Assembly: GCA_017303555.1 (NCBI GenBank)
Contig: JAFLCN010000001.1
Location: 62,001-126,000 of the forward strand
From: Planctomycetota bacterium
GTDB lineage: Bacteria > Planctomycetota > Phycisphaerae > Phycisphaerales > UBA1924
DNA: 64,000 nucleotides
Reading direction: 5' to 3'
The stretch's first letter is position 1; the number at the start of each line of letters is the position of its first letter. Of the stretch, positions 31,396 through 59,350 are shown piece after piece. The translations under genes and the position numbers were made by a program. Under the pieces are notes generated by a model, which was not told where the DNA came from, did not search any database, and saw only the letters and a list, made by a program, of their open reading frames with translations.

Positions 31396-32334
31396 ATGAA
31401 ACAAAACAAACACATTCAGCATGCACTTCTGGGCGCTGCGGCCCTGCTGGCAACTTCGCCGGCATCCGCCCGTCCAGTCCCCCTTTGCGAAACCACCGTC
31501 TTCACCCCGTTCGATGTGCCCGCGTTGCAGAACAACAACGACGGGCCCGCGATCGAGATCGGGATGAAGTTCAGTTCGACCGTTGCGGGCAATGTCGTCG
31601 GCGCGCGCTACTACATGGGCGCGAGCAACAACGGTGTCTGCACCGCGACACTCTGGACCAGCGCGGGTGTGCCGCTGGCTTCGGCGGTTTTCCCGCCGTT
31701 TGCCGGGCCGGGCTGGAACGAGGTGATGTTCTCGAGCCCGATTCCCATCAACGCCAATCAGACGTACGTGATCTCGACCCTGTCCGCCAACGGCTGGTAC
31801 GAGGCCTCGTACAACGTCTTCGATTCCCCCGTTCTCAGCCCGCCCCTGCGGGGTTTGGCCGGGGGTGAGGACGGTCCGAACGGCGTGTACATGTACGGAG
31901 GCGGGTTCCCGACCAACGGCTTCCTCAATTCCAGTTACTTCGTCGACGTCGTCTTCGAGAGTCCGTGCGATGACTATGACCTGTCGTGGCACACCATCGA
32001 CTGCGGCGGGGGCACCAGCACCAGCGGATTCTTCACGCTCAACGGCACTTCGGGACAGCCCGACGCCGGACGCCTGACGGGCGGGACCTTCACACTGGTC
32101 GGCGGGTACTGGGGCGCCGCCGGAGGGGCGCCCTCGTGCCCGGCCGATTTCAACGACGACGGCCTCGTGGACGATGCCGACTTCGTGCTCTTCGCCGGTT
32201 GGTACGACATTCTGGACTGCGCGGCACCCGAAATGACGCCGGGTTGCCCCGCCGACCTGAACGCAGACAACGAGGTCAACGATCTGGACTTCGTGATCTT
32301 CGCCAACGCCTACGACGAACTGCTCTGCCCATAA
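31396..32334 (+). CDS. Secreted DUF4082-type protein with dockerin-like tail
   Basis: The 312-residue protein has a signal peptide (cleavage near ASA-RP, about residue 26), a DUF4082-like beta domain (about 35-190; GMKFSSTVAGNVVGARYY, VCTATLW, WNEVMFSSPIPI), a linker, and a C-terminal tail of about 65 residues with two calcium-loop motifs (DFNDDGLVDDADF and DLNADNEVNDLDF) bounded by cysteines. This matches what is called a GC-type dockerin domain in Phycisphaerae (name from memory). DUF4082 often accompanies carbohydrate-active proteins. The tail probably anchors or sorts the protein. A strong terminator follows. Confidence 0.88.
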   Translation: MKQNKHIQHALLGAAALLATSPASARPVPLCETTVFTPFDVPALQNNNDGPAIEIGMKFSSTVAGNVVGARYYMGASNNGVCTATLWTSAGVPLASAVFPPFAGPGWNEVMFSSPIPINANQTYVISTLSANGWYEASYNVFDSPVLSPPLRGLAGGEDGPNGVYMYGGGFPTNGFLNSSYFVDVVFESPCDDYDLSWHTIDCGGGTSTSGFFTLNGTSGQPDAGRLTGGTFTLVGGYWGAAGGAPSCPADFNDDGLVDDADFVLFAGWYDILDCAAPEMTPGCPADLNADNEVNDLDFVIFANAYDELLCP

Positions 32335-32361
32335 GCAGACGCTTCTATGAGGTTCGATTCA

Positions 32362-32396
32362 CCGCCCGCGCTGACGCGGGCGGTTTTCTTTTTTTT
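32362..32396 (+). terminator. Strong intrinsic terminator
   Basis: A perfect 9-bp stem CCGCCCGCG/CGCGGGCGG with loop CTGA is followed by TTTTCTTTTTTTT. It lies 27 bases after the stop of the DUF4082 gene. Confidence 0.95.
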
Positions 32397-32419
32397 GAGA
32401 CGCACGTTTGCAATCCCGG

Positions 32420-33682: not shown

Positions 33683-33711
33683 GAAGCCTCTTTTCAGTAG
33701 GAAAGCCTGCC

Positions 33712-33729
33712 GTGTCAATCGGGTGACAC
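33712..33729. promoter_or_regulatory. Inverted repeat GTGTCA-N6-TGACAC
   Basis: A perfect 6-bp inverted repeat with a six-base spacer, 30 bases upstream of the 420-residue protein gene. It is one of several TGTCA/TGACA sites between 33712 and 33800. Confidence 0.5.
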
Positions 33730-33782
33730 AGCGAAAAGTATACCATGACACAATCTGGACACGAGTTAGATTGTCAAAGATT

Positions 33783-33798
33783 TTGTCAATATTGACAC
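33783..33798. promoter_or_regulatory. Palindrome TGTCAATATTGACA
   Basis: A perfect 14-bp palindrome (33784-33797) preceded by another TTGTCAA at 33771-33777. Its half-site is the same as in the repeat at 33712. The region is AT-rich for this genome and divergent, so a shared operator is plausible. Confidence 0.55.
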
Positions 33799-33898
33799 TT
33801 GACGTGACGTTCTGATTCCAGTAATCTCCTGTCGCCGCAGTGATGGGGACGTGTGTTTCCGCTCGGCGCGAATTGAGTGCTTTCGAGGAGAAGAGACC

Positions 33899-34549: not shown

Positions 34550-34570
34550 GAACTTCCACCGCTCTCCGAA

Positions 34571-34604
34571 GCGCGTCGCCGAAAGGCGATGCGCCTCTTT
34601 CGTT
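34571..34604 (+). terminator. Hairpin after the PEP-CTERM-like gene
   Basis: Stem GCGCGTCGCC/GGCGATGCGC with one G-T pair and loop GAAA, followed by CTCTTTCGTT. Moderate terminator candidate. Confidence 0.6.
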
Positions 34605-34642
34605 CTGTTCCGCACCCTCACGCACCTCTCGGATACAAGCAC

Positions 34643-35941
34643 ATGAATCGTCCGCTCCACGTGGCTCTATTGGCCGCTTCCGCCATCGCCTCGGTCCGCA
34701 CATTCGGCGCGCCGTGGATCGAAGAGATCCCGCCGGGGTTCTACGTGTGCGACCTCTCCTATGACGGTTCGGTCGCGGCGGGCAACATTGTCGGCGACGG
34801 CTCGTACGAGACGTTCCGCTGGACGCGCGCGGGCAGCGTTGAGTTCTTGGGTCTCGCCTCGGTTCCCGAGATCGGAGCGGGCGGCGGATCGCCGGATATT
34901 TCGTACAACGGCGACTGCATCTCCGCATCGATTCTCAGCTCGGACAGAAACCTCACGCTCGGTCACTGGAACATCAACAGCGGATGGTCGGAGGCTTTCC
35001 CGCCCTTGCCGTCGCACGTGTACTCGCAGGATCAGACGTACGGCTCGGCGTGGGGAATGTCGGGCGATGGAAAGCATGTAACGGGCTACTACATCTCCGC
35101 GAATCTTGCATCGGGCGTGCAGGCCTGCTCGTGGGCACCGGGCGGCGTCGTCACTGATCTTCCTGCCACCCGCGCCCGCGTCAACGCGGCGAGCTATGAC
35201 GGGTCGGTCGTGGGCGGCTGGGAGGACTCCGGATTTGGTCCGTGGATCCCCACGGTCTGGCGGAACGGCGTGAAATACCCGCTCAGCGGTTCGCTCGGGT
35301 CGACGCAAGCCAACAGCATCAATATCGACGGCAGCATCGTCGTCGGTGATGCGCCGGATGAATGGGGCGGGATGAAGGTCGCGACAATCTGGCGCTGGAA
35401 TGGCGTCGAATACACGCAGCAAGATTGCGGTTACCTCCCGGAGACTTCGTACTCGCTCGGCGGTTCGCGTTTCACGGGCGTGACCGACGACGGCGCGATC
35501 GCGGTTGGGTCGAACCAATTGGCCTTCAATCCGGGCCAAGGGGTCAAAGCGATCATCTGGACCGAAGCGACCGGGCTTGTCAGCGGCGATGACTTCATCG
35601 CATCACTCGGCCTTGAGCTTCCAGAGAACTTTGAGCTGCGCGACTTTCAGGCCATTTCACCGGACGGCTCGGTGATTGCGGCCGCCGGCATGAACTCGGA
35701 TTGGTTTACCTTCCAGACAATCCTCATCCATCTCCGCGAGCCGTGCCCCGCGGACACGAACAACGACCGCCAGGTTGACGACGCGGATTTCGTTTCGTTC
35801 GCGGGCGCGTACGACATGCTCGATTGCTCGGCTCCGGGTATGCCGCTTCGTTGCCCCTCGGACCTGAACCGCGACGGCATGGTGGACGACGCAGACTTCG
35901 TGCTCTTCGCCGGCGCGTACGACGTGCTCGTTTGCGATTGA
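34643..35941 (+). CDS. Secreted HAF-repeat protein with dockerin-like tail, paralogue A
   Basis: The 432-residue protein has a signal peptide (cleavage near FGA-PW, about residue 23), about six repeats of the extracellular HAF type (SYDGSVAAGN, FRWTRAGSVEFLG, DGSVVGGWED), and a two-loop dockerin-like tail (DTNNDRQVDDADF, DLNRDGMVDDADF) with flanking cysteines. HAF repeats probably form a beta-propeller. It is paralogous along its whole length to the next gene. Its function is unknown; surface binding is a guess. Confidence 0.86.
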   Translation: MNRPLHVALLAASAIASVRTFGAPWIEEIPPGFYVCDLSYDGSVAAGNIVGDGSYETFRWTRAGSVEFLGLASVPEIGAGGGSPDISYNGDCISASILSSDRNLTLGHWNINSGWSEAFPPLPSHVYSQDQTYGSAWGMSGDGKHVTGYYISANLASGVQACSWAPGGVVTDLPATRARVNAASYDGSVVGGWEDSGFGPWIPTVWRNGVKYPLSGSLGSTQANSINIDGSIVVGDAPDEWGGMKVATIWRWNGVEYTQQDCGYLPETSYSLGGSRFTGVTDDGAIAVGSNQLAFNPGQGVKAIIWTEATGLVSGDDFIASLGLELPENFELRDFQAISPDGSVIAAAGMNSDWFTFQTILIHLREPCPADTNNDRQVDDADFVSFAGAYDMLDCSAPGMPLRCPSDLNRDGMVDDADFVLFAGAYDVLVCD

Positions 35942-35965
35942 GTGCCGACCGACTTCTCTCCCATC

Positions 35966-35999
35966 AGAGCCGACTCGCCTGACCGCGGTGCGGCTCTTT
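35966..35999 (+). terminator. Hairpin between the two HAF paralogues
   Basis: Stem AGAGCCG/CGGCTCT with an 18-base loop and TTTC after it. Moderate terminator candidate located 25 bases after the stop. Confidence 0.5.
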
Positions 36000-36043
36000 C
36001 GAAGCAGACCTTCCTCGGCACACCAACTTTTCGGAGTCAGCTC

Positions 36044-37330
36044 ATGTTGAAGCGGTATAGCAGCGCTCTTGTTTTCTCCATCGCCGGTTTCTGCATGGCA
36101 GGCCCGAGCGTGACGTACATCAAGCCGGGGTATCTGGCGGGGAGCTTGTCGTACGACGGCACGGCTGCCGCTGGAAACGTCGTTTCGGACGGAAGCTACG
36201 AGACCTTCCGCTGGACTTCGTCGGACGGAGCGGCGCGGCTCGGCATGGCCTCGTATCCGGTGATCAGCCGCGCATCGGGCACGCCGGATATCTCCTTCAA
36301 CGGCAAGCGTGTGTCGGCTTCGATCGTGAGCAGCGATTTCCAGCTCACGCAGGGGCTTTGGGACGTCGTTTCGGGCTGGACGGAGCTGATGCCCCCAGAA
36401 GCGCCCGGCGGCGCGCTGGTCGATGACGGATACGGATCGGCGTGGGGCTTGTCGGGCAACGGAGAATGCGTCACCGGCTTTTTCTGGTCGGCGAGCTACC
36501 GGGCGCAGGCATCCATCTGGTCGAGTTCGAATGGAGTGACCGCGCTGGGCCAGATCGACGGACGCAGCGCTCGCGCCAACGCGACGAGCTACGACGGCGG
36601 TGTGTGCGGCGGCTGGGAAGAGAATGAATGGGGTTCCTGGATGCCTCGCGCCTGGCGGAACGGCACCAAGTATGAACTCCACAACGAAGACGGCGGCGTC
36701 AATCAGGTTGAAGCTGTGAATGCCGATGGCAGCGTGCTCGGCGGAAGCAGCCGTGACAACGAAGTTGCCTACAACGTTGCCACGCTCTGGTACTGGAACG
36801 GCGCTTCGTACGACACGGTGCAGCTCGGCGCGCTGATCGACGCGTACCCCGAGCAAACCACTGCGGCGATCATGGGCGTTAGCGCTGATGGCTCTATCGC
36901 CGTGGGCGTACACATGGCTTTCTGGGGATCGACCACCGGGATCGTGTGGACGGCGTCCACAGGCTTGATCCCCGCGACGGACTACTTTGCTTTGATCGGC
37001 GCTCCGATCCCGGCGACGTACGCAGTCCTCGACTGCTCGGCGATCTCGGCGGACGGCTCGGCGATCGCGGCAACGCTGATGGACACGACGACCTTCCAGA
37101 CGCGCACCGCCATCGTTCGTTCGCGCGCGGTGTGCCCCGGTGATCTGAACAACGACGGACAAGTGGACGATGCCGATTTCGTCTCGTTCGCGGCGCAGTA
37201 CGACGTGTTGGACTGCGCCGACAGCGCGATGCCCGGTTACTGCCGCGGCGACATGAACAACGACGGTTTCGTTGACGACGCCGACTTTGTTCTGTTCGCG
37301 CAGGCGTACGACCAGCTTGTCTGTCCGTGA
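36044..37330 (+). CDS. Secreted HAF-repeat protein with dockerin-like tail, paralogue B
   Basis: The 428-residue protein closely follows paralogue A: PGYLAGSLSYDGTAAAGNVV, SDGSYETFRW, SGNGECVTG, SYDGGVCGGWEENEWG, then two tail loops DLNNDGQVDDADF and DMNNDGFVDDADF. The signal peptide ends near residue 19. GGAG lies seven bases before the ATG at 36044. Divergence is strongest in the middle repeats, as expected after an old tandem duplication. Confidence 0.87.
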   Translation: MLKRYSSALVFSIAGFCMAGPSVTYIKPGYLAGSLSYDGTAAAGNVVSDGSYETFRWTSSDGAARLGMASYPVISRASGTPDISFNGKRVSASIVSSDFQLTQGLWDVVSGWTELMPPEAPGGALVDDGYGSAWGLSGNGECVTGFFWSASYRAQASIWSSSNGVTALGQIDGRSARANATSYDGGVCGGWEENEWGSWMPRAWRNGTKYELHNEDGGVNQVEAVNADGSVLGGSSRDNEVAYNVATLWYWNGASYDTVQLGALIDAYPEQTTAAIMGVSADGSIAVGVHMAFWGSTTGIVWTASTGLIPATDYFALIGAPIPATYAVLDCSAISADGSAIAATLMDTTTFQTRTAIVRSRAVCPGDLNNDGQVDDADFVSFAAQYDVLDCADSAMPGYCRGDMNNDGFVDDADFVLFAQAYDQLVCP

Positions 37331-37337
37331 CTGTTCC

Positions 37338-37378: not shown

Positions 37379-37407
37379 CGTGTTTCATTTACCAAAAGGA
37401 GTGAGAG

Positions 37408-38113: not shown

Positions 38114-38348
38114 CATGGCGTTTCGTTCAAGCACGAATGCCATTGAAGCTTTCGCTTGAAACAATTCTCGGACTTCGGTGAGGGAAAGCCTCGATTCGCT
38201 GAAACAAACTCGGCATTCTCTCCGAATAGCCCGCCGGCACTCGGGGAAAAAGCGATAATTCGGGTCGATTGGCGACATGTTCGCGCACGAACGAGCGGCG
38301 CGCGGTGCGAATGTGGCGAAGGCCGACAGATCTTCTTGGGGTCTCGAG

Positions 38349-41042
38349 ATGCGGAATCAATTCTTTGCAGTACTGGTCAGCGCGGCAGCGGCGGGAATCG
38401 GCGGACCTGCGTTCGGTCAGTCCGGCTGCGACGGGCGGTTCATCGATGGGATCGGAATCCCGGGGGTGAATGCAAACCGATCGATTCAGGCGAGCGTGTC
38501 CTGGGATCCGGATGGTCCTGGACCGGCCGAACCGTTGCTGGTCGTGTCCACAGACGGCGCCGGCGCGGGTTACTCGTTCGGTGGGCGGGTCTTCGCGTAC
38601 GACGGTTTGGCGTGGCGCCCGCTGGGCCTGGGCTTTGGATCAACAAGCCAGGTGGTGACATCACTCGCCGTCTTCCGAGGCGAGCTCTACGCAGCCGGGA
38701 ACTTTGATCAAGGTGAGCGGCCCGGAACCGTCCTTCGCGGGCTGGCACGGTGGGACGGCGCAGCGTGGCAGCCCGTACCCGGCAATCCGTCACTCTCGGG
38801 TTTCCAAACTCTCTTTGTGTACAACGGTGAATTGATCGCCGCGACCGCATCGGCACAGCTCACGATCGATGGACAGAACGCCGGAGGCGCGGCCAGCTTT
38901 GACGGCACCGCGTGGCACAGAATCGGTCAGGCACCCGTCGGCATTCGCTGCTTCGGCACGTACGGCAACGATCTCATTGCGGGAGGAATCTTCGGCGCGT
39001 ACAACGGCACGACGTTCAACAACATTGCGCGCTGGGATGGGAACTCGTGGCAACCGATGGGTGCGCCGAACGCGGGAACGAGCGGTCCGGTGATGGCTTT
39101 GCAGGAATTTCAGGGTTCGTTGTTCGTCGGAGGCGAGTTCAACCAGGCGGGCGGCTTTGGGTACTCGGGCCTTGCACGGTGGAACGGCTCGTCGTGGTCG
39201 GCCAATGTCGGCAGTAATTTCAACGGCTTTGTCTATTCGCTGCTCGAACGATCCGGTGTCCTCTACGCGGGCGGTTCGTTCAGCACGATCGGAGGCAAGT
39301 CGCTCTACTACATTGCCGCGCTCGACTCCGGAGGTTGGCGCCGGGCCGCAAACGGCGAGATTTCCACGAACTTCAACAGCAAGGTGCAGTCCCTTGCTTC
39401 GGTTGGCGGTCGAATCTTCGGAGCCGGGTCCTTTCCCGGAGTGAATGTCGCGGGATTCGGCGGCGGATTCGGCAGCATCGCCTCGTTCTCGGAAGACCCG
39501 AGTGTCCCGTTCTCACCGTTGACTTCACTGAAAGGCATGCTGCTGAACGGCTTTGCGCACCTCGGCGGATCGCTGTACGCCTACGGGATACTGACGTACG
39601 ACTTCAACAACTTGAAGAGCCCGACCGTTGCCAAGCTGGTCCACGGTGAATGGCAACTCGCGGGCGGTTCGCTGACGTCGGATGAGTACTTTGGCGATGG
39701 CCCAACCTTCGCGCGACTCCGCGCCGCGGTCGAGTACCAGGACAAGCTTGTGTTTGCCGGGATCTTTTCGAGTGTTGACGGCGTTCCTGCGCGAGCCGTC
39801 GCTGCGTTTGATGGAGCGAGCTGGAGCGCGGTCGTCCCCTCGGCACTGTGGCCGGCCATAGTCTCTCTGCACTCCGTTGCGGTGTTTGACGGTTCGCTTA
39901 TTTTGGGCGGGGAGTTCCAGGGCGCCGCAGCGGTCGAGGGCCCGGTCAGCAACATCGCTCGCTGGGATGGTGGGCAACTGCACGCGATGGGGACAATTCC
40001 GAGCCGTGTGCGGATCATTCGAAATCTCGAAGGTCGGCTCTACGCCGGCACAGACCAGGACGCATTTCAGTGGAACGGCACCGCATGGGTCGCCCTGCGT
40101 TCATCCGCGAACGTTGGACTTGAAAATGTGAATGACTTCATTCTCTACAAGGGAACGCTCATCGCCGAAGCCGACGGGCGCGCCGCACGCTGGGACGGCA
40201 TTTCGTGGACAAACCTGAACGTCGGCGGCTCGAGCGAGCTCGGCGGTCTGATCGAGTACGACGGGCAGCTCTTCCGATTCGGCAGCATCGGCGGCTCCAA
40301 CCCGGTGAGCTTCAATATCCGGAGTTGGACCGGCACGAACCCCTGGCGCGGCGTGGGAAGCGTTCCCGACTACCGGCCCACTCTCACGGGCAATTCGATG
40401 ATGACGCTCAATTGCGCGATTGTGCACGACGGTGAACTGTACTTTGGCGGCTTCGTCGGCACTCCTGCCCCGGGCGGCTACACCTTCGGCTCGCCCAAAG
40501 GTGTCGTCGTCTCACGTTTCACTTCCGATACGCTCCCCCGCTTCGACGGCCAGCCGATCGATCAGGTCTTCACTCTGAATCGGGAAGCGCGTTTGCAGGC
40601 GTCCCTTGTCGCTGGAGTTGAACGGCCGAGCCAGATCATCTTCCAATGGCGCCGCAACGGCGTGCCGATCACCAACGGCTCCGGCGGCGCATCCGCAGGA
40701 GGCGGCACGGTGCAGGGTGCGACAAGCGCAACGCTTCACATCGATGGCGTGCAGGCCTCCGACGCGGGCGAGTACGACGTCGTCGCGACCGGATGCGGCT
40801 CGCAAGCTTCCGCTGCCGGCGACATCCGGATCCGGCTCATCCCGCAGGACATCAACGCCGACGGGTTGGTCAACGATGAAGACTTCGCCCTCTTCGCGAA
40901 CGATTACGACATCATGCTCTGCGCCGCGTCGGAGATGCCCTACTCCTGTCCGTCGGACTTCAACGGCGACGGGCTTGTCGATGATTCGGACTTCGTGCTG
41001 TTCGTCCCCGCGTATGAAACCCTTCTCGCCGGCGGCAACTGA
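38349..41042 (+). CDS. Large secreted beta-propeller protein with Ig-like domain and dockerin-like tail
   Basis: The 897-residue protein has a signal peptide (cleavage near AFG-QS, about residue 24), a long repeat region (about 30-740) with units of the form ARWDGxxWxxxG, then VxALxxFxGxLFVGGxF, an Ig-like domain (about 765-830; FQWRRNGVPI, DAGEYDVVATGC), and the dockerin-like tail (DINADGLVNDEDF, DFNGDGLVDDSDF). The repeats look like kelch or delta-60 type blades and number enough for two propellers. The ATG at 38349 gives the signal peptide; no strong ribosome site is visible. A terminator follows at once. Confidence 0.87.
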   Translation: MRNQFFAVLVSAAAAGIGGPAFGQSGCDGRFIDGIGIPGVNANRSIQASVSWDPDGPGPAEPLLVVSTDGAGAGYSFGGRVFAYDGLAWRPLGLGFGSTSQVVTSLAVFRGELYAAGNFDQGERPGTVLRGLARWDGAAWQPVPGNPSLSGFQTLFVYNGELIAATASAQLTIDGQNAGGAASFDGTAWHRIGQAPVGIRCFGTYGNDLIAGGIFGAYNGTTFNNIARWDGNSWQPMGAPNAGTSGPVMALQEFQGSLFVGGEFNQAGGFGYSGLARWNGSSWSANVGSNFNGFVYSLLERSGVLYAGGSFSTIGGKSLYYIAALDSGGWRRAANGEISTNFNSKVQSLASVGGRIFGAGSFPGVNVAGFGGGFGSIASFSEDPSVPFSPLTSLKGMLLNGFAHLGGSLYAYGILTYDFNNLKSPTVAKLVHGEWQLAGGSLTSDEYFGDGPTFARLRAAVEYQDKLVFAGIFSSVDGVPARAVAAFDGASWSAVVPSALWPAIVSLHSVAVFDGSLILGGEFQGAAAVEGPVSNIARWDGGQLHAMGTIPSRVRIIRNLEGRLYAGTDQDAFQWNGTAWVALRSSANVGLENVNDFILYKGTLIAEADGRAARWDGISWTNLNVGGSSELGGLIEYDGQLFRFGSIGGSNPVSFNIRSWTGTNPWRGVGSVPDYRPTLTGNSMMTLNCAIVHDGELYFGGFVGTPAPGGYTFGSPKGVVVSRFTSDTLPRFDGQPIDQVFTLNREARLQASLVAGVERPSQIIFQWRRNGVPITNGSGGASAGGGTVQGATSATLHIDGVQASDAGEYDVVATGCGSQASAAGDIRIRLIPQDINADGLVNDEDFALFANDYDIMLCAASEMPYSCPSDFNGDGLVDDSDFVLFVPAYETLLAGGN

Positions 41043-41579: not shown

Positions 41580-44237
41580 CTACGGGCAGACGAGCTCGTT
41601 GTACGCCACGATGAAGATCGTGAAGTCCGCGTCGTCCACCACACCGTCCTGGTTGAAATCAGCCGGGCAGGCCGGGGGCATGAACGGATCGGCGCAGTCC
41701 AGCATGTTGTACGGCCCGATGAAGAGCGTGAAGTCGGTGTCGTCTACCACGCCGTCCAGGTTCAGATCGCACGGGCACGTGGTGGGCAGTCGGAATGCCG
41801 CGCGGATCAGGGCTTGCCGGAATCCCGCGTTCGTGTTGACGGTGACGCTGAACGACGCGGCATGCCCGGACAGGAACGTGCCACGTCCATCGCGACCCGT
41901 CCGTGCCGCGGGCGAGTTTCCGGGCGAAAAGACCTGCGCAATCGTTCCTGAAAGGCCGGGCGCGAGCTCGATCGCGTCGCCCGGCGAAGCAAGAGCCGTG
42001 AGGCCCTCCGCCGAAACGACATACATCCCCTGCTGAGCGCTGGTGGTCGGCGTCGCGGAGATCATCGCATTTCCGCCATCGCACGCCACGAGCGACAGGT
42101 CGTTCACGGCGCGGCAGACCGCGTATCCGGGAAGCTTGGTGACGCCTCCACGCACGAGCGACGTCACGCCCGACGATGAGGCGCGGAGCAGCGCGGTCGC
42201 AGAAGCCTGGTTCTCGACGATCGTCGCAACAAACAGGACATCCCCGCTCGGCAGCAGCGCAAAGCCCCGGCTCGGGATGAAATCCTGGATGGTGCGCGCC
42301 GCGATGCCGTCAACCATCCCGCCCGTACGGGCCAGGACCACCACCGAGGATTGCGTGCCCGTGCAGAGCACGGTCGCGCCCGAAGTGATCGGCGCAAAAA
42401 ACGCCACCGAATGCCCCTCCGATGCGGTATCCAGCACATCGGCAAACAGCACCCCGTTCGGTTCGCCGGGCACCTGCGTGCCGCTGCTGACAACGAGGGT
42501 CGAACTCGCCGGGGGCGGCCCGCCGAGCAGGAGGGCACGCGGACCGAGCGAGTCGGTCAGATTTCCCTTGCGGACGATCGCGCCCGAATCGGTGTACGCG
42601 ATGAGCCTGGGATTGGCAAGCTGGGTGATGCCCGGCGGGAACGCGAGCGAGGAGCGTGTCAGCGTGCCGCTCACGGTCGCGAACGCGGCGACTCCGGTGT
42701 TGCCGCCGGAGATGACCGACTGCAGCGCGTACGAGTTCGCGCCGTTGAGGAAGGGCTCGCTCGAACTGCTTGTCTGCGGATCGAAGACGCCGCCGCCCGT
42801 CTGCGGGGCCGGATCGCCGGACTGCGCCAGCACGGCCGGCGCGTTCATCGTTCCGCCGTAATAAAGGAACTTGTTGATCGGACCGGGGAAATAGGCACGC
42901 AGATCCCGAATGGCGATTCGGCCCGAGGATGTGAGGCGGAAGAGCGAGGGCTGAAGAAATGGCGCGGCATCGGCGAATGCAATCGGCGAGAGCACGCCGG
43001 GAACGCCCGCGTAGCACGATCCCATGCCGTTCTGAAGGGGGGCATCGAACGCGAGCATGCCGTCGGTCCGCAGATCCTTGGGAGCGAACAGGCTTCCGAA
43101 CGGCTGCGGTGCGCCGGTCGCCTGGCCTCCCTGATAGGCAACGACGCCGAGCGAGACCGACCCGATCGAAGTCGGCGGGGTGCATGTAACCCTCAGGTCC
43201 GCCACCCAGCCCTCAAGATCGCCCTCGGAATCAAGACCGATACCCGCGACCACGTTGCCATCGTCTGAAACGGCGTTGGCACGCAGAAGCGTCCAGCCGG
43301 TCAGATCGTGGCCGTTCGAGATCAGGAGCTGCTGCAGATCACGCGTTCCGTGCTGCGCATCCCAGATAAAGGCCTTGCCGTTGGATTCACCGACGATGAT
43401 TCCGCCGTTGGCGCTCGCGTCCGAAGCTTCGCCAAAGTTGGACGACCCCGGCAGCATCGGGATCGCAACCATCCCGCTCTGGGCGCTCCAGCGGAACGGT
43501 CGGTGTTGGAACTGGCCGGGCGAATCCTCGACGTTCGCACGCCCCACGACGACGGCGCCGTCGGCGCTGATCCCGACCGCGAAGGACGCGTTTCCTCCGG
43601 GCAGGAAACCAATCCCCTGGGTTTCGCCTTCGGGAGTCCAACGCGCCGCCTGATCGATGTTGATCGAAGGCTGCGGCGGGTAGCCGTATCCGTTGCCGGG
43701 CTCGAAGAAGTTGCAGGAGATCGCCGCGGCGTTCCCGTCGCCGTTCATTCTCGCCGCCCGCAGCGAGGTGTAGCCGGGGATGTTCGGAAAATCGGCCGGG
43801 GATTCGAGACCGGCGTAGCGCGTCGTCTCGCTCATGAAGACCGAGCCGTCGTCGTTGACATCGAGGAGCGGCGGAGTCAGCGAACCGATGTTCGGTCCGG
43901 GCGGGACCCACCAGAAGCCCTGCGAATCACCGCCGCCGACGATGAACGCGCCGTTCGCGTTGGTGGCGTAGGCGCGAGCGCGGGTCTCGCCGTCGTAGAG
44001 CCCGAGTTGCTCAACAGGCTGCCCGCCGAGGCGGCGGATCGGTCGGAAATCTGCAAACCCGCCGGCGAGCACGCCGTAGCCCGCGACGACGGTCCCGTCC
44101 GCGTTCAGATCGGTGGGAAGCACGTAGCCGAGCCCCGAATTCGGCGTGTTGAGCGGTTCGAAACCGGCGAACTGGGCAAGGGTGCAGGTTGAGCCGGCGG
44201 CAGCAGTCAGTGCCGCGGCGAAGAAGGCTTTTCGCAT
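41580..44237 (-). CDS. Large secreted HAF-like protein with dockerin-like tail
   Basis: The 885-residue protein has a signal peptide (cleavage after about residue 21), an N-terminal HAF-type repeat region (about 30-340; NADGTVVAGYGV, SADGAVVVGRAN, SDDGNVVAGIGL), a larger unrecognised beta-rich region with GDPAPQTGGG and similar segments (about 350-810), and a dockerin-like tail (DLNLDGVVDDTDF, DFNQDGVVDDADF). GGAGG lies before the ATG at 44237. Function is unknown. Confidence 0.85.
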   Translation of the reverse strand: MRKAFFAAALTAAAGSTCTLAQFAGFEPLNTPNSGLGYVLPTDLNADGTVVAGYGVLAGGFADFRPIRRLGGQPVEQLGLYDGETRARAYATNANGAFIVGGGDSQGFWWVPPGPNIGSLTPPLLDVNDDGSVFMSETTRYAGLESPADFPNIPGYTSLRAARMNGDGNAAAISCNFFEPGNGYGYPPQPSINIDQAARWTPEGETQGIGFLPGGNASFAVGISADGAVVVGRANVEDSPGQFQHRPFRWSAQSGMVAIPMLPGSSNFGEASDASANGGIIVGESNGKAFIWDAQHGTRDLQQLLISNGHDLTGWTLLRANAVSDDGNVVAGIGLDSEGDLEGWVADLRVTCTPPTSIGSVSLGVVAYQGGQATGAPQPFGSLFAPKDLRTDGMLAFDAPLQNGMGSCYAGVPGVLSPIAFADAAPFLQPSLFRLTSSGRIAIRDLRAYFPGPINKFLYYGGTMNAPAVLAQSGDPAPQTGGGVFDPQTSSSSEPFLNGANSYALQSVISGGNTGVAAFATVSGTLTRSSLAFPPGITQLANPRLIAYTDSGAIVRKGNLTDSLGPRALLLGGPPPASSTLVVSSGTQVPGEPNGVLFADVLDTASEGHSVAFFAPITSGATVLCTGTQSSVVVLARTGGMVDGIAARTIQDFIPSRGFALLPSGDVLFVATIVENQASATALLRASSSGVTSLVRGGVTKLPGYAVCRAVNDLSLVACDGGNAMISATPTTSAQQGMYVVSAEGLTALASPGDAIELAPGLSGTIAQVFSPGNSPAARTGRDGRGTFLSGHAASFSVTVNTNAGFRQALIRAAFRLPTTCPCDLNLDGVVDDTDFTLFIGPYNMLDCADPFMPPACPADFNQDGVVDDADFTIFIVAYNELVCP

Positions 44238-44337
44238 CTCGTTCCTCCGAGCGTTGCAGCGTAACAGCCCTTGCCCAACTGACAAGCAGAATTTGGCGGG
44301 TGCCGAAACGGGTTTCGAACGGCGGGATTGGCCGGAT

Positions 44338-45257: not shown

Positions 45258-45581
45258 ATGAAGAATCGCAACAGAACGCCGAAGGTACTGGCGGCCGTGA
45301 TCGTCTCGTTTGCTGCGGCAGCATCCATCGGCGCGCCCGGCCCGCAACGGGGCACGGGCACGTGGATCGAACCGGCCGACGCCGCCGACCTGGATTTCGA
45401 TGGCCTCGTCGATGATGCCGATTTTGTGCTTTTCTCGCTCCAATACGACGCACTTGAGTGCAACGCCCCGAACATGCCCGATGAGTGCAGCGCGGATATC
45501 AACCACGACGGCCAGGTAGACGACGCAGACTTTGTGATCTTCGTTCGCGAGTACAACCGGATTCTCCCCGCAGTTTCCTGA
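45258..45581 (+). CDS. Stand-alone secreted dockerin-like protein
   Basis: The 107-residue protein is little more than a signal peptide (about residues 1-26), a short spacer and one dockerin-like module with loops DLDFDGLVDDADF and DINHDGQVDDADF, the linking YDALEC segment, and the end YNRILPAVS. It lacks the usual first CP and final LxC cysteines but keeps two internal ones. No catalytic or binding domain is attached. AAAGG lies before the ATG. It could be a competitor, adaptor or calcium-binding protein; this is speculation. Confidence 0.82.
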   Translation: MKNRNRTPKVLAAVIVSFAAAASIGAPGPQRGTGTWIEPADAADLDFDGLVDDADFVLFSLQYDALECNAPNMPDECSADINHDGQVDDADFVIFVREYNRILPAVS

Positions 45582-51475: not shown

Positions 51476-51482
51476 TCGTGCA

Positions 51483-51721: not shown

Positions 51722-54700
51722 ATGACCCTGCGATTGACCCTTGCAATTCTCATTTCCGCTTTCGCGACAACCGCATCGCTCGCCGCCACCACACTGACAT
51801 GGACCGGCGCGGGCGACAACAAAACGTTCAGCTCCGCCTCCAACTGGTCGCCGGCAATGACGCCGGATGCGACCACCGATTGCGTCATTCCCGCCGGAGC
51901 GGCGGTCATTCAATTCGGGGGCGTCTCCACCGTCCGCAGCCTCACGGTTGCGCGCGATATCACCTTGAACTCCTGCAACTACCTGACCCTGACCAACGGG
52001 CTGGTGATACAAGCGGGCGTCACCGTGACTTTGGATCAGTCGAGTGGCTGCATCGCTTTGGCGTTCTCCGGCGGCCCGCAGTCGATCAGCGGCAACGGCA
52101 CTGTCTTCCTGAAGAACTCCGGCATCGGCAACCCTTCTTCCTTGCTCAACGTCTACAACGGCGCGGATCTTCGCATCGAGAGCGGCATCACCGTTCGGAT
52201 CGGCCCCGGAACCGGCAAGATCCTCATCGGAGTCAACACAGGTTGCCGACTCACAAACGCCGGCCTCTTGACCTTGCCGACAAGCAAGTCCTTGTCGATC
52301 GTCGGGTCGGGCTTCTTTGAAAACTCGGGAACAATCCAGGCGATCGCCTCCCGCATCGAACTCCTCACGCCCACCTGGCTCAACAGCGGAACCATCAGCC
52401 TGAACTCCGGTACGGTGATGCTCGGGGGCACGTACACCTCGTGGGGCAATGTCACGAAAACTGGCGCTTCACTGATCGAACTCGCCGGCCGCTATCTGAC
52501 GACACAGGTTCAGGCATCGAGCGCCACCGGCGATCTCGCGCTCGCGGGTGTCGAGCTGACGAACGCCACAATCAGCTCGATCGATGGTGCTCGGGTCGTG
52601 TCAAAGAACGTTTCCACGCTCGACGGCTGCACCGTCCTTTCCGATCTCGAAATAAACTGCGGCACGTGGATCATCCGCAACAATCTCACACTCAACAGCA
52701 AGCTCACGATCCGTTCCATTTCCTCGTGCGGAGACACACTGCGCTTCGAGGGCGCCACGCAGAGCCTCGCCGGCAGCGGCAGGATCGAACTACTGGATAC
52801 CGCAACGCTCAAAATCGCCGTCGACCCCGGCTGCGACGCGACCCTGTCCGAATCCATTCCCGTTCTATGCAACGCCTCGGCCGGCAAGGTCTCGTCGGTC
52901 TTCGCGACCATCGCGTCCGGAGCGACGTTCCGCCTGCGCACTCCACTGACGCTCCAGGGCGGAACGCTCAGCATCGCGGGCGCCGGCAAGTTCATCAACG
53001 AAACCCAGTTGAACATGCCGACCGGCGGCACGATGGTCATCGCCGGAACCCCGTGGGAAAACACCGGGACGATTGCCGCCGTCGACGCGACGGTCACGCT
53101 CGGGGGCGCGTACTCGACCTTTGCGAACTTCAGTCGCCTGGGGGGCTCGCTGACCCTCTCGGGCTCGTACTCCGGCGCCTTGCTCGAAACGGTGCCCACC
53201 ATCGGCCCCGTCCTGCTCAGAAACTTCTCCGCCTCGAATGCCGTTCTTCTCCCATCCGGCGGCAGCACCATCACCATCGCTGAATCTGTCGCGCTGCAGG
53301 CATGCACTCTCGCTGGACCAGCCCAGATCAGCAGCTGCGGATCGCTCACGATCACTTCCGGGCTCACATTCGCCAACAGCGCGCGCCTCACCGTCGCCCG
53401 AACGCCGAACAACTGCCCGTCCGATGCCATTCAGTTCAGCGGCGGCATCCAACTGCTCTCCGGCACCGGCGACATCTTCCTGACAACGGACGATCCGGCC
53501 GCTGTTCATCTGACGAACAGCGCCGTTGTCACGATCGGCCCCGGCGTCGCGCTCCGCCGCGGCAGCGGGTCAAACGGTGTCCTGGGCGTGACGATTGACG
53601 CCGGATGTCGACTCATCAATCAAGGTCTCATCGAGTCTTCCTCAGCGGGCTCCACGCTGAGCTTCCAGGGCGCCGGCGCTCTCGAAAACTCCGGGATCAT
53701 CGATATCTCCGCCGGCACCATCAAGCTTCTCAACAGCTCCTGGAGCAGTACCGGCCAGGTCAAGCTCGCGGGCGCTGGTTCACTTGTGCTTCAAGGCTCG
53801 CCCGCGTGGCTCGCCTCGATCGAGAAGAACGGCGGCACCGTTTCTCTGACCGGCCTCACCTCGGGCGGTGTTGTCGAGACGAACGACGCCATCGGCGATA
53901 TCGCCATCGATTCGGTCACGCTTACCGGAACGACGCTCCGCACCACCGGCGCCGCAAAGTTCATCTTCAGCGGACACAACGAGAAAATCCTCGACGCGTG
54001 CACGGTGGACGGGGCAATCGAAGTCACCAACGGTGCCGAGCTCAAGGTCCGCAACAATCTTGAGTTACTCGCTGGCTCCAACGTCAACATCTACACAGCC
54101 ACCTCCGGAACGGGTACTCCGAAGATGACCTTTCAGAACGCCGCTCAGTTGCTCAAGGGCACGGGCACGATCAACGCCGGAAGCGGAGTGATCGCGACAA
54201 CGATGCCGCTCCAGATCGAGCCCGGAATTGTCATACAGACCGTCGCCCGCGGAATCGGGAACAGCATCTCGTTTGCAATCGGAGCCTCCGGTCCACTCGT
54301 GAACTACGGAACCATCCGAAACAACTCGCCGGAGCGTTATCTCTACAGCGAAAGCGGGTCCGCCAGCAAATTCGACAATCGCGGAGTATTCGAGACTTCT
54401 TCTTCCATCACCTGGCGTGTCAAGGAATGGGCGAACTCCGGAATTATCCGCTGCTCTACAGGCGCCGACTTCTACCTTCAGGGCGCATTCTCCAACCCGG
54501 GCACGATTGAAAAAACCGGCGGCCGGCTCACCCTCGCCGGTCAATGCACCGCGGTCTCCCTCGACTGCTCCGCGATGGGAGGTGACGTTCTCCTCCGAGA
54601 CTTGAGCTGCACGGGCACAGTTCTCACCGGTTCCGCCGCAGGTCGCCCCGTCTTGCGTGACGAAGTGACACTTGATGCGTGTATCTTCAGCGGCGAGATC

Positions 54701-57700
54701 GCCGTTTCCACCGAGTGCAGCAACGTTCGAATCACGAACGGACTTTCACTCGCATCGGCGTATGTCACATTCCTGAACGACGGCAACTGCGGCCCGGCCT
54801 CCACATTCCATCTCTTCGGATCGCCCCAAACCATCGATGGCACCGGAACAATCGAAATTCGCGGACTCACCTTCGTTGCCGAGGGGCCGGCCACTCTCGG
54901 ACCCGGCGTGGAACTGCTCAGCCAGTCCACGGTTTCGTTGAGCACCGACCAGATTGGCCATTCGAGTGGGTCATCGCTCACGAGCTACGCGACAATCACG
55001 ATGAATCGGGCGCAGGCAACGATGAACCTCGGAGGCACGGCCTTCGTGAATCTCGGAAAAATCCGTGTTCTCGCCGGAACCATCAACCTCACTACGAACG
55101 GTTCAATGGGCGATGTGACTGTCGCGCCCGGCGGGAAGCTCTCTGTCTCAGGCAATTACAGCATCGATGCGCCGCTCAACATCGGCCCGGGAGGGTCGCT
55201 CTCACTCGGCGGAACATGGACCAACAACTCCATCGTTTCGGTCACCGACGCTCCGCTCACACTCGGCGGAACCTGGACCAACGCGGGCACGATCACCGCA
55301 CTGAACTCCTCTATCACCATCGGCGGGACGCCGGTACAAGAAGGCAACCTCCAATTCACGAACTCGCCCCGAACCTACACCGGCACGTACAAGGGATCGC
55401 TCATTGCCGCCACGCCTGAAACCGGCGACATCAAGCTCAGCAGTGCAACGCTCACAGGAACAACGCTGCGGACGAGCGGAGGAGCCCGCTTCATTTTTCA
55501 AGGGTCTTCCAACACGTTCAATAGCTGTACGATCGAGAACGATCTGACCTTCGATTTGTGCAACAGTCTCAATGTCAACGACGCATTGACACTCGTGGGC
55601 GGGGCACGCCTGATCTTCAGCGGATGCTCGTCGACTCCGCTCATTCTGTCCGGCGCGACCACCACTGTGTCGGGCACCGGCGGGCTCGTTTTCCGGGGCA
55701 CCGCTCCCGTTGTCACTGTGCAATTGCTGGGGGTTGCCAACGCGATCTTCTCAGAGGGAATTTCCGTCAGCTTCCCCGCCGACGCGACGACGTCGACGCT
55801 GCGATTCGCAACGTCTCCGAGCGGCACCATTGTTCTGCGGGGGCTGCTCTCCCTCGAACGTCCTTTCGGAAGCACGGCCTTCCAAGCCGGATTCAGCAAT
55901 CAAGGCGTCATCGATCTGCGGTCCGGCTCACTCGCCATCACCAACTTGCTCGGTCCCATCGGCAACATCGCTATCGCCCCCGGCGCGTCTCTTGTCCTCG
56001 ATGGCACATACACCATCAATCAGGATCTCGCCTTCTCGAATGGCGGCTCGCTCTCCCTCGCCGGCACATGGTCCAACAGCGCCCAGATCTCGATGGACGG
56101 CGGCCCGCTCACGCTCGGGGGCACCTGGACAAATTCTGGCTCGCTCCACGTCGCCAATTCCCTCTGGACCATCGGCGGAACATATTCCTCTCTCGGCAGC
56201 TACACAAGCTCGGGAAACTCCCTCGCCTACGCGGGAAACTACCCCTTCCCTTCGCTCATCGCAGACGCTTCCACCGGTGACATCCTTCTGCTCAACATCA
56301 ATCTCAAGAACGCCCGACTCGAAGCTCGCGATGCCGCACGCCTGGTTGTCGGCGCCGGCTCCACGCTCGGACTCGACAATTGCACCATCGCATCCGATCT
56401 CACCCTGAACTCGTGTTCGGCCGCCACCATCAGCAACGGCCTCACGCTCGAGAACAACGCAACGCTCATTCTCAAGAATCGCACCTGCACCAAGACCAGC
56501 CTCGCCTTTACCGGTCCGGAGCAGACGATCGGAGGCACCGGACGCATCCTCATCGCCGATCCCGCGAGCGTCGCCGATTTCCAGGTCGCGGGCACCTGCC
56601 TCAAGGTCAATATCGGAAGCGGCGTATCCCTCGTCTGCAAGCCGCCGGCCGGTGGACCCAATGCCTCCATTTCCGTCTCCGGTGGCCGCACACTGACCAA
56701 CCGCGGCCTGATCTCCTGCCAATTTTCCGGGACTTTCAGCATCACCGGCACGGGAACGTTTTCCAACGAAGCCACCGTCGAATCCGTTTCCGGCACATTT
56801 TCAATCAACCCCACCACCATCTCGAACTACACGGCCCCGAACTCAACGCTCTCCGGCGGCACGTGGCGTGCCATCAACGGTTCTCTGACTTTGGGCACGC
56901 GCTCGATCGTTCAGCTCGCGCCCAATACAACGCTCCGTCTTCAGGGCACCTCAATCACGACTCCAACGCTGGCACAGCTCAGCCAAAACGCCGGCACGCT
57001 CTCGTTGCAGGGCCGCACCCTGATCACGTCCGCTCCGTTCACAAACACCGGAATACTCGAACTCAATCCCGGCAGCGCGATCGATGCCGCCGCCGGCATC
57101 ACCCTGTCTCCATCGGGCACCGTGCGTTTGAACCTCGGTTCCCCGCAGGCGGCAGCAATCCGCGCCGGTTCCTCACTGGTCCTCGGCGGCAGTCTCAGCG
57201 TCGGCGTCTTGTCAGGCCCCGCGCCCGAACCCGGTTCGCTCCTCGCGTCGTTCGCATCGGCGGACGCGATTTCCGGTTCATTCGCGAGTGCGTGCTTTGA
57301 TCCGAATCCTCAGTCGATCGGCGTCTCCGTCCTGCTCAATCCGCCGACCGGCTTGCCCCCACAGGCGACTCTCGATCTGCTTTTCAACACGGATGGAGGG
57401 ACATTGCCTTCGATCCAGACTCAACCTTCGAACACGTCCGCGCAGCCCGACGCTCATTTCTCGGTCGCTGCCGCGCCCGTCTTGGTCCAGTATCGGTGGC
57501 GGCGCAATCTCGTGCCCCTCACCGACGGCCCGACCGGTTCGGGCTCGACCATCGTGGGCTCCGAAACCGCAGACCTCTCCGTCCACTTGGCGCACGCTTC
57601 CGATGCTGGCTTCTATGACTGTGTCGTCTCGAATGCCTGCGGCAGCACCATCAGCCAAGCTGCGGAACTCCGCGTTTGCCCCGGCGATCTCAACGCCGAC

Positions 57701-57874
57701 GGGTTCGTCGACGATTCCGATTTCATTGTCTTCGTCGCGGCGTACAACATCCTCGACTGCGCCGATCCCGGCATGGCGGTGGGCTGCCCCGCCGACCTCG
57801 ATTTGAGCGGCGCCGTCGACGACGCCGACTTTGTGATCTTCCTCGGTGCGTACAACCAGCTTCTTTGCCCCTGA
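51722..57874 (+). CDS. Giant secreted modular beta-solenoid-like protein with Ig-like domain and dockerin-like tail
   Basis: The 2050-residue protein has a signal peptide (cleavage near LAA-TT, about residue 21), seven long modules of about 220-285 residues, an Ig-like domain (about 1898-1984; YRWRRNLVPL, DAGFYDCVVSNACGS) and a dockerin-like tail (DLNADGFVDDSDF, DLDLSGAVDDADF). Modules are rich in Gly, Thr and Ser with strand-turn units such as LGGTWTNxG and IxNGLTL, like large adhesins and right-handed beta-helices. Most modules carry a cluster of three cysteines. GGAG lies before the ATG at 51722. A carboxypeptidase with the same tail follows 12 bases later. Confidence 0.88.
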   Translation: MTLRLTLAILISAFATTASLAATTLTWTGAGDNKTFSSASNWSPAMTPDATTDCVIPAGAAVIQFGGVSTVRSLTVARDITLNSCNYLTLTNGLVIQAGVTVTLDQSSGCIALAFSGGPQSISGNGTVFLKNSGIGNPSSLLNVYNGADLRIESGITVRIGPGTGKILIGVNTGCRLTNAGLLTLPTSKSLSIVGSGFFENSGTIQAIASRIELLTPTWLNSGTISLNSGTVMLGGTYTSWGNVTKTGASLIELAGRYLTTQVQASSATGDLALAGVELTNATISSIDGARVVSKNVSTLDGCTVLSDLEINCGTWIIRNNLTLNSKLTIRSISSCGDTLRFEGATQSLAGSGRIELLDTATLKIAVDPGCDATLSESIPVLCNASAGKVSSVFATIASGATFRLRTPLTLQGGTLSIAGAGKFINETQLNMPTGGTMVIAGTPWENTGTIAAVDATVTLGGAYSTFANFSRLGGSLTLSGSYSGALLETVPTIGPVLLRNFSASNAVLLPSGGSTITIAESVALQACTLAGPAQISSCGSLTITSGLTFANSARLTVARTPNNCPSDAIQFSGGIQLLSGTGDIFLTTDDPAAVHLTNSAVVTIGPGVALRRGSGSNGVLGVTIDAGCRLINQGLIESSSAGSTLSFQGAGALENSGIIDISAGTIKLLNSSWSSTGQVKLAGAGSLVLQGSPAWLASIEKNGGTVSLTGLTSGGVVETNDAIGDIAIDSVTLTGTTLRTTGAAKFIFSGHNEKILDACTVDGAIEVTNGAELKVRNNLELLAGSNVNIYTATSGTGTPKMTFQNAAQLLKGTGTINAGSGVIATTMPLQIEPGIVIQTVARGIGNSISFAIGASGPLVNYGTIRNNSPERYLYSESGSASKFDNRGVFETSSSITWRVKEWANSGIIRCSTGADFYLQGAFSNPGTIEKTGGRLTLAGQCTAVSLDCSAMGGDVLLRDLSCTGTVLTGSAAGRPVLRDEVTLDACIFSGEIAVSTECSNVRITNGLSLASAYVTFLNDGNCGPASTFHLFGSPQTIDGTGTIEIRGLTFVAEGPATLGPGVELLSQSTVSLSTDQIGHSSGSSLTSYATITMNRAQATMNLGGTAFVNLGKIRVLAGTINLTTNGSMGDVTVAPGGKLSVSGNYSIDAPLNIGPGGSLSLGGTWTNNSIVSVTDAPLTLGGTWTNAGTITALNSSITIGGTPVQEGNLQFTNSPRTYTGTYKGSLIAATPETGDIKLSSATLTGTTLRTSGGARFIFQGSSNTFNSCTIENDLTFDLCNSLNVNDALTLVGGARLIFSGCSSTPLILSGATTTVSGTGGLVFRGTAPVVTVQLLGVANAIFSEGISVSFPADATTSTLRFATSPSGTIVLRGLLSLERPFGSTAFQAGFSNQGVIDLRSGSLAITNLLGPIGNIAIAPGASLVLDGTYTINQDLAFSNGGSLSLAGTWSNSAQISMDGGPLTLGGTWTNSGSLHVANSLWTIGGTYSSLGSYTSSGNSLAYAGNYPFPSLIADASTGDILLLNINLKNARLEARDAARLVVGAGSTLGLDNCTIASDLTLNSCSAATISNGLTLENNATLILKNRTCTKTSLAFTGPEQTIGGTGRILIADPASVADFQVAGTCLKVNIGSGVSLVCKPPAGGPNASISVSGGRTLTNRGLISCQFSGTFSITGTGTFSNEATVESVSGTFSINPTTISNYTAPNSTLSGGTWRAINGSLTLGTRSIVQLAPNTTLRLQGTSITTPTLAQLSQNAGTLSLQGRTLITSAPFTNTGILELNPGSAIDAAAGITLSPSGTVRLNLGSPQAAAIRAGSSLVLGGSLSVGVLSGPAPEPGSLLASFASADAISGSFASACFDPNPQSIGVSVLLNPPTGLPPQATLDLLFNTDGGTLPSIQTQPSNTSAQPDAHFSVAAAPVLVQYRWRRNLVPLTDGPTGSGSTIVGSETADLSVHLAHASDAGFYDCVVSNACGSTISQAAELRVCPGDLNADGFVDDSDFIVFVAAYNILDCADPGMAVGCPADLDLSGAVDDADFVIFLGAYNQLLCP
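51950..56570 (+). repeat. Seven modular repeats within the giant secreted protein
   Basis: A recurring core (CT, about 11-13 residues, C, then IxNGLTL, a strand, C, and FxGxxQxxxGTG) begins near 51959, 52621, 53293, 53990, 54671, 55518 and 56371. The period is about 660-850 bases. The fourth copy has lost two of the three cysteines. Copies differ a lot, so duplication is old or selection is strong for divergence. Confidence 0.75.
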
Positions 57875-57886
57875 TGGAGCCGATCG

Positions 57887-59350
57887 ATGCCCCGTCCACG
57901 CCGGACTTTCCGAGCTTCCACCGCGGCCCGCGTGCTCGCACTCTTCACGTGCGCCGGCGTCGCATCCGCCGCCGCCAATCCGAATTTCGGCCCGGTGCCG
58001 TTGGATGAGCCGCACGACGGCTTCACCGTTGTTCGCGCCCGACTCAACTCCACGCGCGACGCCCGGCTGGTCGAATCACTCGCCCGCGACCGCTGGTCGT
58101 GCGGTGCCGGCGCACGCCGCGAAGCCGATTTCGAGATTCGCCGGACCGACCTTTCCCTTCTCGATGCGGGCGGCATCCGCTATCAGATCGTCGTCCCCGA
58201 TGTCGGCGAATTGCTCCGCGCCGATGAAGCCTCGCGCGTCGGCGTGTTTCAGGATCGTGGATTCTTTGATGAGTTCCAGGATTACGCCGGCATCAGCGGC
58301 TATGTGAACTCGCTGGTCTCCGCCTATCCCGCCTTTGCGCGGCGCGCTTCGCTCGGCTTGTCGCTCCAATCTCGCGAGATCTTTGCTCTCCGGCTCACCA
58401 GCCCGGTGCCCGCGATCGGCGCATCGCCCCGAAAGCCGGTCGTTGTCATCACCAGCCTTCAGCACGCCCGTGAGTGGATCACGCCCATGGGCACGCTCTT
58501 CACCGCGACCAGGATGTTGGAGACGTACGAGTCAGACAGCCGCGTCCGCGCCGCCCTCGATCGCTTCGAGATCGTCTTTGTCCCGATGTGCAACCCCGAC
58601 GGCTATGCGATGACATGGGGCGGCAGTCGCCTCTGGAGAAAGAACGCCCGCGCCAGCACCACCGGAGTCGGCTCGATTTTCGGTGTCGACAACAATCGCA
58701 ACTGGAGCGTCGGCTGGGGCCTCAATTCCGGTTCGAGTTCTTCAACCGGCAGCGAGGAATACCGGGGAACCGCCGCGTTCTCCGAGCCCGAGAATCAGGT
58801 CATCGCAAACTACGCATTGCTCACACCCAAGGTTGTCGCCTGGCTTGATGTTCACAGTTACGCCGCCAAGGCGCTCCGCACCTGGGCCTATCAGAACGCG
58901 CTCCCGCCGGGCCTGCCCACCTTCGATCGAATCGGTCACGCCATGGTCGATTCCATCTTCAGCGTCAGCGGAATCACCTATCAGTACGGCGGACCGGAGA
59001 TTCTCTATCTCGCGTCGGGCACCGCGCCCGACTGGGCCTACGGCACTTTCAATGCGCCCGCTTTCACGATCGAGTTGAACAGCCCGAGCGGCGGCTTCGT
59101 CCCCCCGGCCTCGTCCATCATTTCGTCCGGCAACGAGGCTGCCGCGGCAATCCTCGCGTTCGTCGGGTCGCTCTGCCCCGCCGATTTCAATCTCGACGGG
59201 GCCGTCGACGATGCCGATTTTCAGCTCTTCGTCGGCCCGTACGACGCGCTCCTTGACAACGCCTGCGACCTCACAGGTGACGGCCTGACCGACGATGCAG
59301 ACTTCGGCCTCTTTGTTGCCGCGTACGACACACTTGCGTGTCCGGGCTAG
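57887..59350 (+). CDS. Secreted M14 zinc carboxypeptidase with dockerin-like tail
   Basis: The 487-residue enzyme has a signal peptide (cleavage near ASA-AA), a propeptide-like region (about 40-130), and an M14 domain with zinc ligands in QHAREW (His about 192, Glu about 195) and DVHSYA (His about 323), the substrate-binding NPDGY and NNRNW motifs, and the catalytic Glu in TIELNS (about 396). It removes C-terminal residues from peptides. The tail (DFNLDGAVDDADF, DLTGDGLTDDADF) matches the other dockerin-like proteins. GGAG precedes the ATG. It is almost certainly co-transcribed with the giant protein. Confidence 0.93.
   Translation: MPRPRRTFRASTAARVLALFTCAGVASAAANPNFGPVPLDEPHDGFTVVRARLNSTRDARLVESLARDRWSCGAGARREADFEIRRTDLSLLDAGGIRYQIVVPDVGELLRADEASRVGVFQDRGFFDEFQDYAGISGYVNSLVSAYPAFARRASLGLSLQSREIFALRLTSPVPAIGASPRKPVVVITSLQHAREWITPMGTLFTATRMLETYESDSRVRAALDRFEIVFVPMCNPDGYAMTWGGSRLWRKNARASTTGVGSIFGVDNNRNWSVGWGLNSGSSSSTGSEEYRGTAAFSEPENQVIANYALLTPKVVAWLDVHSYAAKALRTWAYQNALPPGLPTFDRIGHAMVDSIFSVSGITYQYGGPEILYLASGTAPDWAYGTFNAPAFTIELNSPSGGFVPPASSIISSGNEAAAAILAFVGSLCPADFNLDGAVDDADFQLFVGPYDALLDNACDLTGDGLTDDADFGLFVAAYDTLACPG

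Follow-up and report, generated by a model that had tools for sequence, protein, structure and literature searches.

The window (the whole 64-kb stretch of planctomycete DNA analysed) contains eight genes encoding proteins that end in a common tail (Table 1). As the preliminary description had stated, two loops of the form D-x-[ND]-x-D-G-x-V-D-D-x-D-F lie at the C-terminus of all eight; the loop starts are 36 residues apart, or 28 in the case of the 57887 protein, rather than the 32 or so first given. The window tails are 54–65% identical to that of the first protein (31396), and the tail of the 41580 protein scores best in the whole genome. The front domains had been called unrelated, and this holds for the DUF4082 domain (6e-37), the M14 peptidase (5e-62), the Ig-like domains, the weakly matching propellers and the sub-threshold HAF repeat of the 41580 protein, but not for the 34589 and 35942 proteins, which are adjacent paralogues. 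Directly upstream of the tailed genes lies the gene for a large protein that looks exported and contains long collagen-like GPQG repeats (Pfam Collagen, 1.6e-35); it has no tail of its own. The 45258 protein is conserved in a genus mate, where it also lies beside HAF and propeller genes and also lacks a Cys-Pro end; a protein of this type could be a competitor, a plug or a part of the docking apparatus.

Table 1. Positions of the tailed proteins of the window and of other proteins discussed in the text
Sequence	Gene (strand)	Tail	Protein	Remarks
Window	6286-7182 (+)		Protein ending VPAPG-hydrophobic-SRRRR	Exosortase-type C-terminal signal
Window	27808-31320 (+)		Collagen-like repeat protein	No tail
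Window	31396-32334 (+)	32137-32331	DUF4082 protein	Four cysteines; ends CP-stop
Window	34589-35941 (+), likely start 34643	35744-35938	HAF-type, propeller-like protein	Four cysteines
Window	35942-37330 (+), likely start 36044	37133-37327	Paralogue of the 34589 protein	Four cysteines
Window	38277-41042 (+)	about 40839-41039	Propeller and Ig-like protein	No outer cysteine pair; ends GGN
Window	41580-44285 (-)	41583-41777	HAF-repeat protein	Four cysteines
Window	45258-45581 (+)		Signal peptide and dockerin-like module, no front domain	Outer cysteines missing, inner pair kept
Window	51722-57874 (+)	57677-57871	Solenoid-like repeat protein of about 2050 aa with Ig-like domain	Four cysteines
Window	57887-59350 (+)	about 59174-59347	M14 zinc carboxypeptidase	Short linker; outer cysteines and one inner
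L159	190-1017 (-)		Counterpart of the 45258 protein	Genus mate
L105 (G096)	3668-5371		Matrixin-type metalloprotease	Weak cohesin-like domain, EF-type loops
L356 (G000:C38)	near 38688		Protein in a 3083-residue open frame	Cysteine-free tail, sole outlier seen

The tail was first described as a set of eight, but the genome carries at least 176. A profile of the eight tails gave at least 152 matches in the genome (4.06 Mb, 94.5% complete), the best at 3e-34 and the others down to E = 2.8e-12. At least 166 distinct full-length tails were present in the surrounding stretches, and adding further loci and the matches of a second profile, a generic one, brought the count to at least 176; as both searches scored 150 candidates each, these counts fall short of the true number. 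With the places located by the generic probe outside the stretches read, the total is estimated at about 190 (overall range 170–200), corresponding to an estimated 5% or so of all genes, and a chance origin of the set is excluded. The tail runs up to the stop codon in 129 of 166 cases and ends one residue before it in another 24, with a Cys-Pro-stop terminus in 118. By a crude rule, 118 of the 156 complete tailed open reading frames (ORFs) have a signal-peptide-like start, which falls within the first 60 residues in 91/156, versus 78/676 control ORFs. Tailed genes are clustered, accounting for about 43 of the 59 genes called on one 116-kb stretch. Their products include proteases (S8, M10, M12A, M14, M64, trypsin), endonucleases, an alpha-amylase, GH53, peptidylarginine deiminase (PAD), sugar dehydrogenases, Ig-like proteins and propellers; Pfam searches of 146 tailed proteins returned chiefly proteases, propellers and Ig-like domains, with few glycosidases and many proteins without a Pfam match. 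Surface display of the tailed proteins, as initially suggested, is plausible, because signal-peptide-like starts are common and extracellular hydrolases are found among the cargo.

The resemblance of the tail to dockerins is borne out by structure comparison, with a good fold match. An AlphaFold2 model built on 96 tails, taken from the window proteins and from genus mates and led by the 41580 tail, reached a pLDDT of 95 and a pTM of 0.82; it took the place of a first model based on eight sequences, for which dockerin matches were weak. In VIA-align, the tail model matched dockerin 2y3n_B (Z 8.3, 1.3 Å over 54 residues) and all 25 of the entries listed were dockerin-bearing; the top Foldseek matches were also dockerins, none of them with E < 0.001. 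Dockerins ranked first when the sequence profile was compared with the PDB (3ul4_B, 6e-4, residues 2–59). Against the Dockerin_1 model (PF00404, gathering cut-off 22.9), the 45258 protein scored 23.3, and the other window proteins scored 10.7–15.3 or were unreported. The predicted calcium ligands are well kept across 352 repeats (D1 in 348, D5 in 335, D12 in 352 and N3 in 292). By its predicted fold, its position and its recognition pattern, the tail is a dockerin module.

Four consensus cysteines accompany the two loops: C1 and C3 precede loops 1 and 2, respectively, and C2 and C4 follow helices 1 and 2, C4 mostly having a final Pro after it. The flanking cysteines had been reported as absent only from the 45258 protein, which does lack the outer pair; the 38277 protein lacks it too, as does its counterpart at the syntenic position of a genus mate (L159), and both window proteins keep the inner pair, while the 57887 protein has the outer pair and a single inner cysteine. 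Among the 176 tails of this genome, the presence of C1 tracks that of C4 (p = 4e-7) and the presence of C2 tracks that of C3 (p = 2e-21), with p > 0.2 for the other pairings; the 191 tails of genus mates gave 6e-19 for C2-C3, 0.002 for C1-C4 and 0.1 or more for the others, paralogues being counted as independent in these statistics (367 tails in total) and a few of the patterns being parsing errors. C3 occurs without C2 in five tails of this genome. On the natural reading, these patterns of loss fit disulfides C1-C4, which would form a clasp at the chain ends, and C2-C3, which would span the linker insert. Solved dockerins have a terminal clasp of the stacking type (PMC5934362), in contrast to the presumed C1-C4 disulfide of the tail. 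The inner pair and the linker insert are probably derived in this genus, because sampled tails of other genera mostly have the outer pair only and the short-linker tails of the genus itself (e.g. the M14 tail) lack one or both inner cysteines. In two other genera (G217 and G224; e.g. L237, L243), many tails have a segment beginning NCDGST in place of the calcium loop, with extra cysteines in loop and helix, which makes them another structural variant of the dockerin loop.

In each of the nine genera examined, the tagged proteins carry a version of the tail peculiar to that genus. The four-cysteine Asp-Asp version saturates the eight genomes of the genus (8/8), and a single weak match was obtained in only 4 of 142 other genomes of the family; in a scan of named genomes, it was found in the Phycisphaerales MAGs JAEUJD, JAFEBN, JAFEBO, JAHBXG, JAIEUA and CANHCQ. 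Eight other genera, represented by one genome each, have from 88 to 150 or more tails of their own versions per genome. Homologues of the M14 carboxypeptidase illustrate this across the family: the enzyme is common to the genera and the tail is the version of the host genus. Where at least ten tails were available (seven genomes), their identity is 0.68 within a genome and 0.34 between genomes. The information on genus carried by each position (shuffle-corrected, maximum 2.8 bits) peaks at positions 11 and 10 of both repeats (1.55 and 1.52 bits), positions 14, 21 and 9 come next, and D12 carries no such information; in a jackknife by genome, positions 10 and 11 took the top two ranks in six of eight sets and ranks one and three in the remaining two. 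Within one tail, repeat 1 matches repeat 2 at positions 10–11 in 81% of cases, repeats drawn from the same genome in 72% and repeats from different genera in 8%. The commonest residues at these positions are D-A/S/T in the genus studied here, T/S-L in G266, T/I-D/E in G311, A-N in G224, D-F in G201, V/I-N in G217, F-F in G231, G-D in G285 (three tails) and F-A/S in G090 (two tails), the uniformity of the other genera being inflated, as their tails mostly come from lists of best-scoring matches. Less selected checks are provided by the stretches read for G231 and by a generic probe of the genome studied here; this probe, made without any tail of the genus, yielded almost only the Asp version and recovered several tails missed by the first profile. 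The sole outlier seen to the genus version is a cysteine-free tail in L356, with other residues at positions 10–11.

Positions 10 and 11 of both dockerin repeats are the established determinants of cohesin specificity (PMC8063739), and the symmetry of the repeats underlies a dual binding mode (PMC3413522). The tails have what is expected of functional dockerins, residues at 10–11 that are lineage-specific and symmetric in both repeats. Asp10 is present in 345 of the 352 repeats of the genome, encoded by GAC and GAT in a ratio of about 50:50, and positions 4, 7, 15, 18 and 22 are free to vary. The uniformity at Asp10 is not accounted for by recent gene conversion, because the Asp10 codons are mixed while neighbouring positions vary; as judged from these sequences, the constancy of Asp10 is the pattern expected from selection for a shared partner.

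Cohesins would be the obvious partners, and, in agreement with the earlier reading of the window, none is recognisable either there or elsewhere in the genome. Pfam cohesin (PF00963) has no match in this genome and is found in 26 of 198 genomes of the class, and a profile of 14 planctomycete cohesin domains gave no match at E <= 1 in any of the eight genomes of the genus; used as a positive control, the same profile found held-out genomes at 6e-16, 9e-15 and 4e-14. Six of seven other genomes of the family also had no match at E <= 1, the seventh having one at 0.26, and heavy users of the tag and cohesin carriers are mostly different genomes. The sole cohesin-like candidate seen in the family is a matrixin-type metalloprotease of G096, adjoining a subtilase with a GC-type dockerin, and no counterpart of it was seen in the genome studied here. 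The expectation that genomes carrying the tail should share a conserved partner was pursued for cohesins only, and none was found; a shared partner is still favoured, because each genus has uniform residues at positions 10–11 in both repeats. Tail-gene clusters contain no secretion machine (according to a gene list based on codon usage) and consist of mixed housekeeping genes, SprA_N has no match in 14 genomes and none in any control genome, and a BLAST comparison of untailed ORFs with genus mates was dominated by ORFs antisense to the tails.

The other partner considered at the outset was a sortase-like enzyme. All 14 genomes searched have an exosortase, and exosortase/PEP-CTERM sorting resembles the present case in that a C-terminal tag is carried by many exported proteins; here, however, tails with PAPG, a hydrophobic stretch and RRRR belong to other proteins, without the dockerin tail, which are likely to be the true substrates. 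Exosortase was rejected as an enzyme acting on the dockerin tail, as its substrates form a different set of proteins. A sortase-type reading of the tail itself is not supported either: the PEP-like motif, transmembrane helix and basic cluster of PEP-CTERM are replaced by a soluble helix and Cys-Pro. A protein with an exosortase-type end is encoded in the window (Table 1), and VPAPG-type proteins also adjoin tailed genes elsewhere (L042, L059, L062, L072, L081), so two unrelated C-terminal tags lie side by side in the genome.

Among the closest known systems is the NCBIfam model NF041540 (dockerin_GC, 'GC-type dockerin domain-anchored protein'), a homologous tail from the same planctomycete family, with a terminal Cys and two loops. 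It saturates 11 of 11 genomes of the family in a sample of the class, and, in the dockerin_GC comparison, the A6 and A5 profiles align over 55 columns (98.6%). The seven window proteins scanned score 14.4–20.5 bits, all below the curated cut-off of 29, and the tail of this genus differs from dockerin_GC in having Asp at position 10 and a linker lengthened by an insert of about 10 residues that bears two additional cysteines. A search for literature on the dockerin_GC family, or under the name 'GC-type dockerin', found no paper; the prior work found is the name of this model and the proposal of a 'planctosome', a cohesin/dockerin peptidase complex with M14 carboxypeptidases, for freshwater planctomycetes (PMC6461901). 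The likeness lies in planctomycete dockerins borne by peptidases, including M14 carboxypeptidases, whereas the planctosome model comprises cohesins and few components. Cellulosomal dockerins (PF00404; 2y3n, 3ul4, 2ozn) share with the tail the fold, two calcium loops, two-fold symmetry, a terminal clasp and recognition residues at 10–11 common to the enzymes of one species. Unlike them, the tail almost invariably forms the C-terminus of its protein and has no cohesin to match; its cargo consists mostly of proteases, nucleases and propellers rather than cellulases, and is not a set of plant-polysaccharide hydrolases carried on a scaffoldin, of which none was found.

The explanation favoured here, with a probability of roughly 60%, is that the tail functions as a dockerin, attaching exported proteins to a shared, lineage-specific receptor that lies outside the cytoplasm. 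Its directly supported elements are the fold of the tail as modelled, its genome-wide use, its terminal position, the cysteine pairing pattern, the genus-specific residues at 10–11, the symmetry of the repeats and the absence of a recognisable cohesin. Tailed proteins would be exported through Sec, undergo oxidative folding and take up calcium in two loops, each followed by a helix, the chain ends being locked by the putative C1-C4 clasp and, in most copies of the genus, the inserted linker by C2-C3. Both repeats would present the same recognition residues (here Asp and Ala/Ser/Thr), presumably allowing dual-mode binding, and the module would dock on one common receptor, probably at the cell surface. 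This receptor would have diverged between genera, with all 100–200 tags of a genome following it, resulting in a genus-specific key.

An alternative, which is unlikely, is that the tail is a C-terminal secretion or sorting signal, like the C-terminal domain of type IX secretion, through which an outer-membrane translocon takes periplasmic cargo to the surface. The strict terminal position and the lack of a cohesin would be expected, and one tail version per genome fits one translocon. Type IX cargo includes peptidylarginine deiminase, endonuclease I, astacin, subtilase, and lamin-tail and Ig_7 domains, and the cargo here resembles it. Against such a signal stand the lineage-specific residues, which occupy the positions of cohesin recognition in a dockerin fold and recur in both halves of the module. 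It is rather improbable that a cohesin-bearing scaffold is present and was missed, through an assembly gap or divergence past sequence detection: the dockerin fold, the recognisable cohesins of some genomes of the class and the complex proposed in PMC6461901 speak for it, but the profile that found its controls was silent in all eight genomes of the genus, in which a simultaneous gap is unlikely, and genomes rich in tags are mostly not those with cohesins. That the tail is a stabilising end cap with no receptor, which duplication has spread and gene conversion or recent ancestry has kept uniform within genomes, is very improbable. In its favour, tails are uniform within genomes, many of their genes are in tandem and the M14 tail has the short-linker form in 8/8 genomes of the genus, indicating that over short times a tail is passed on together with its cargo; against it, gene conversion would make every position alike, contrary to the mixed Asp10 codons and variable exposed neighbours, and divergence between genera is concentrated at 10–11.

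Docking on a common receptor leads to a more specific proposal, which is put forward tentatively: an address system on the scale of the proteome, in which a dockerin is read by a non-cohesin receptor and the genus key at positions 10–11 has changed on all 100–200 tags together. Dockerins would, in this family of bacteria without recognisable cohesins, be a tag for the whole exoproteome, with a lineage code readable at exactly the residues that set cohesin specificity. The code makes the receptor findable, as it is expected to be exported, to be present in all genera and to have a binding face that changes with positions 10–11. If the non-cohesin address system is real, the family represents a natural series of orthogonal tag-receptor pairs, and would offer many disulfide-stabilised, possibly orthogonal docking pairs.
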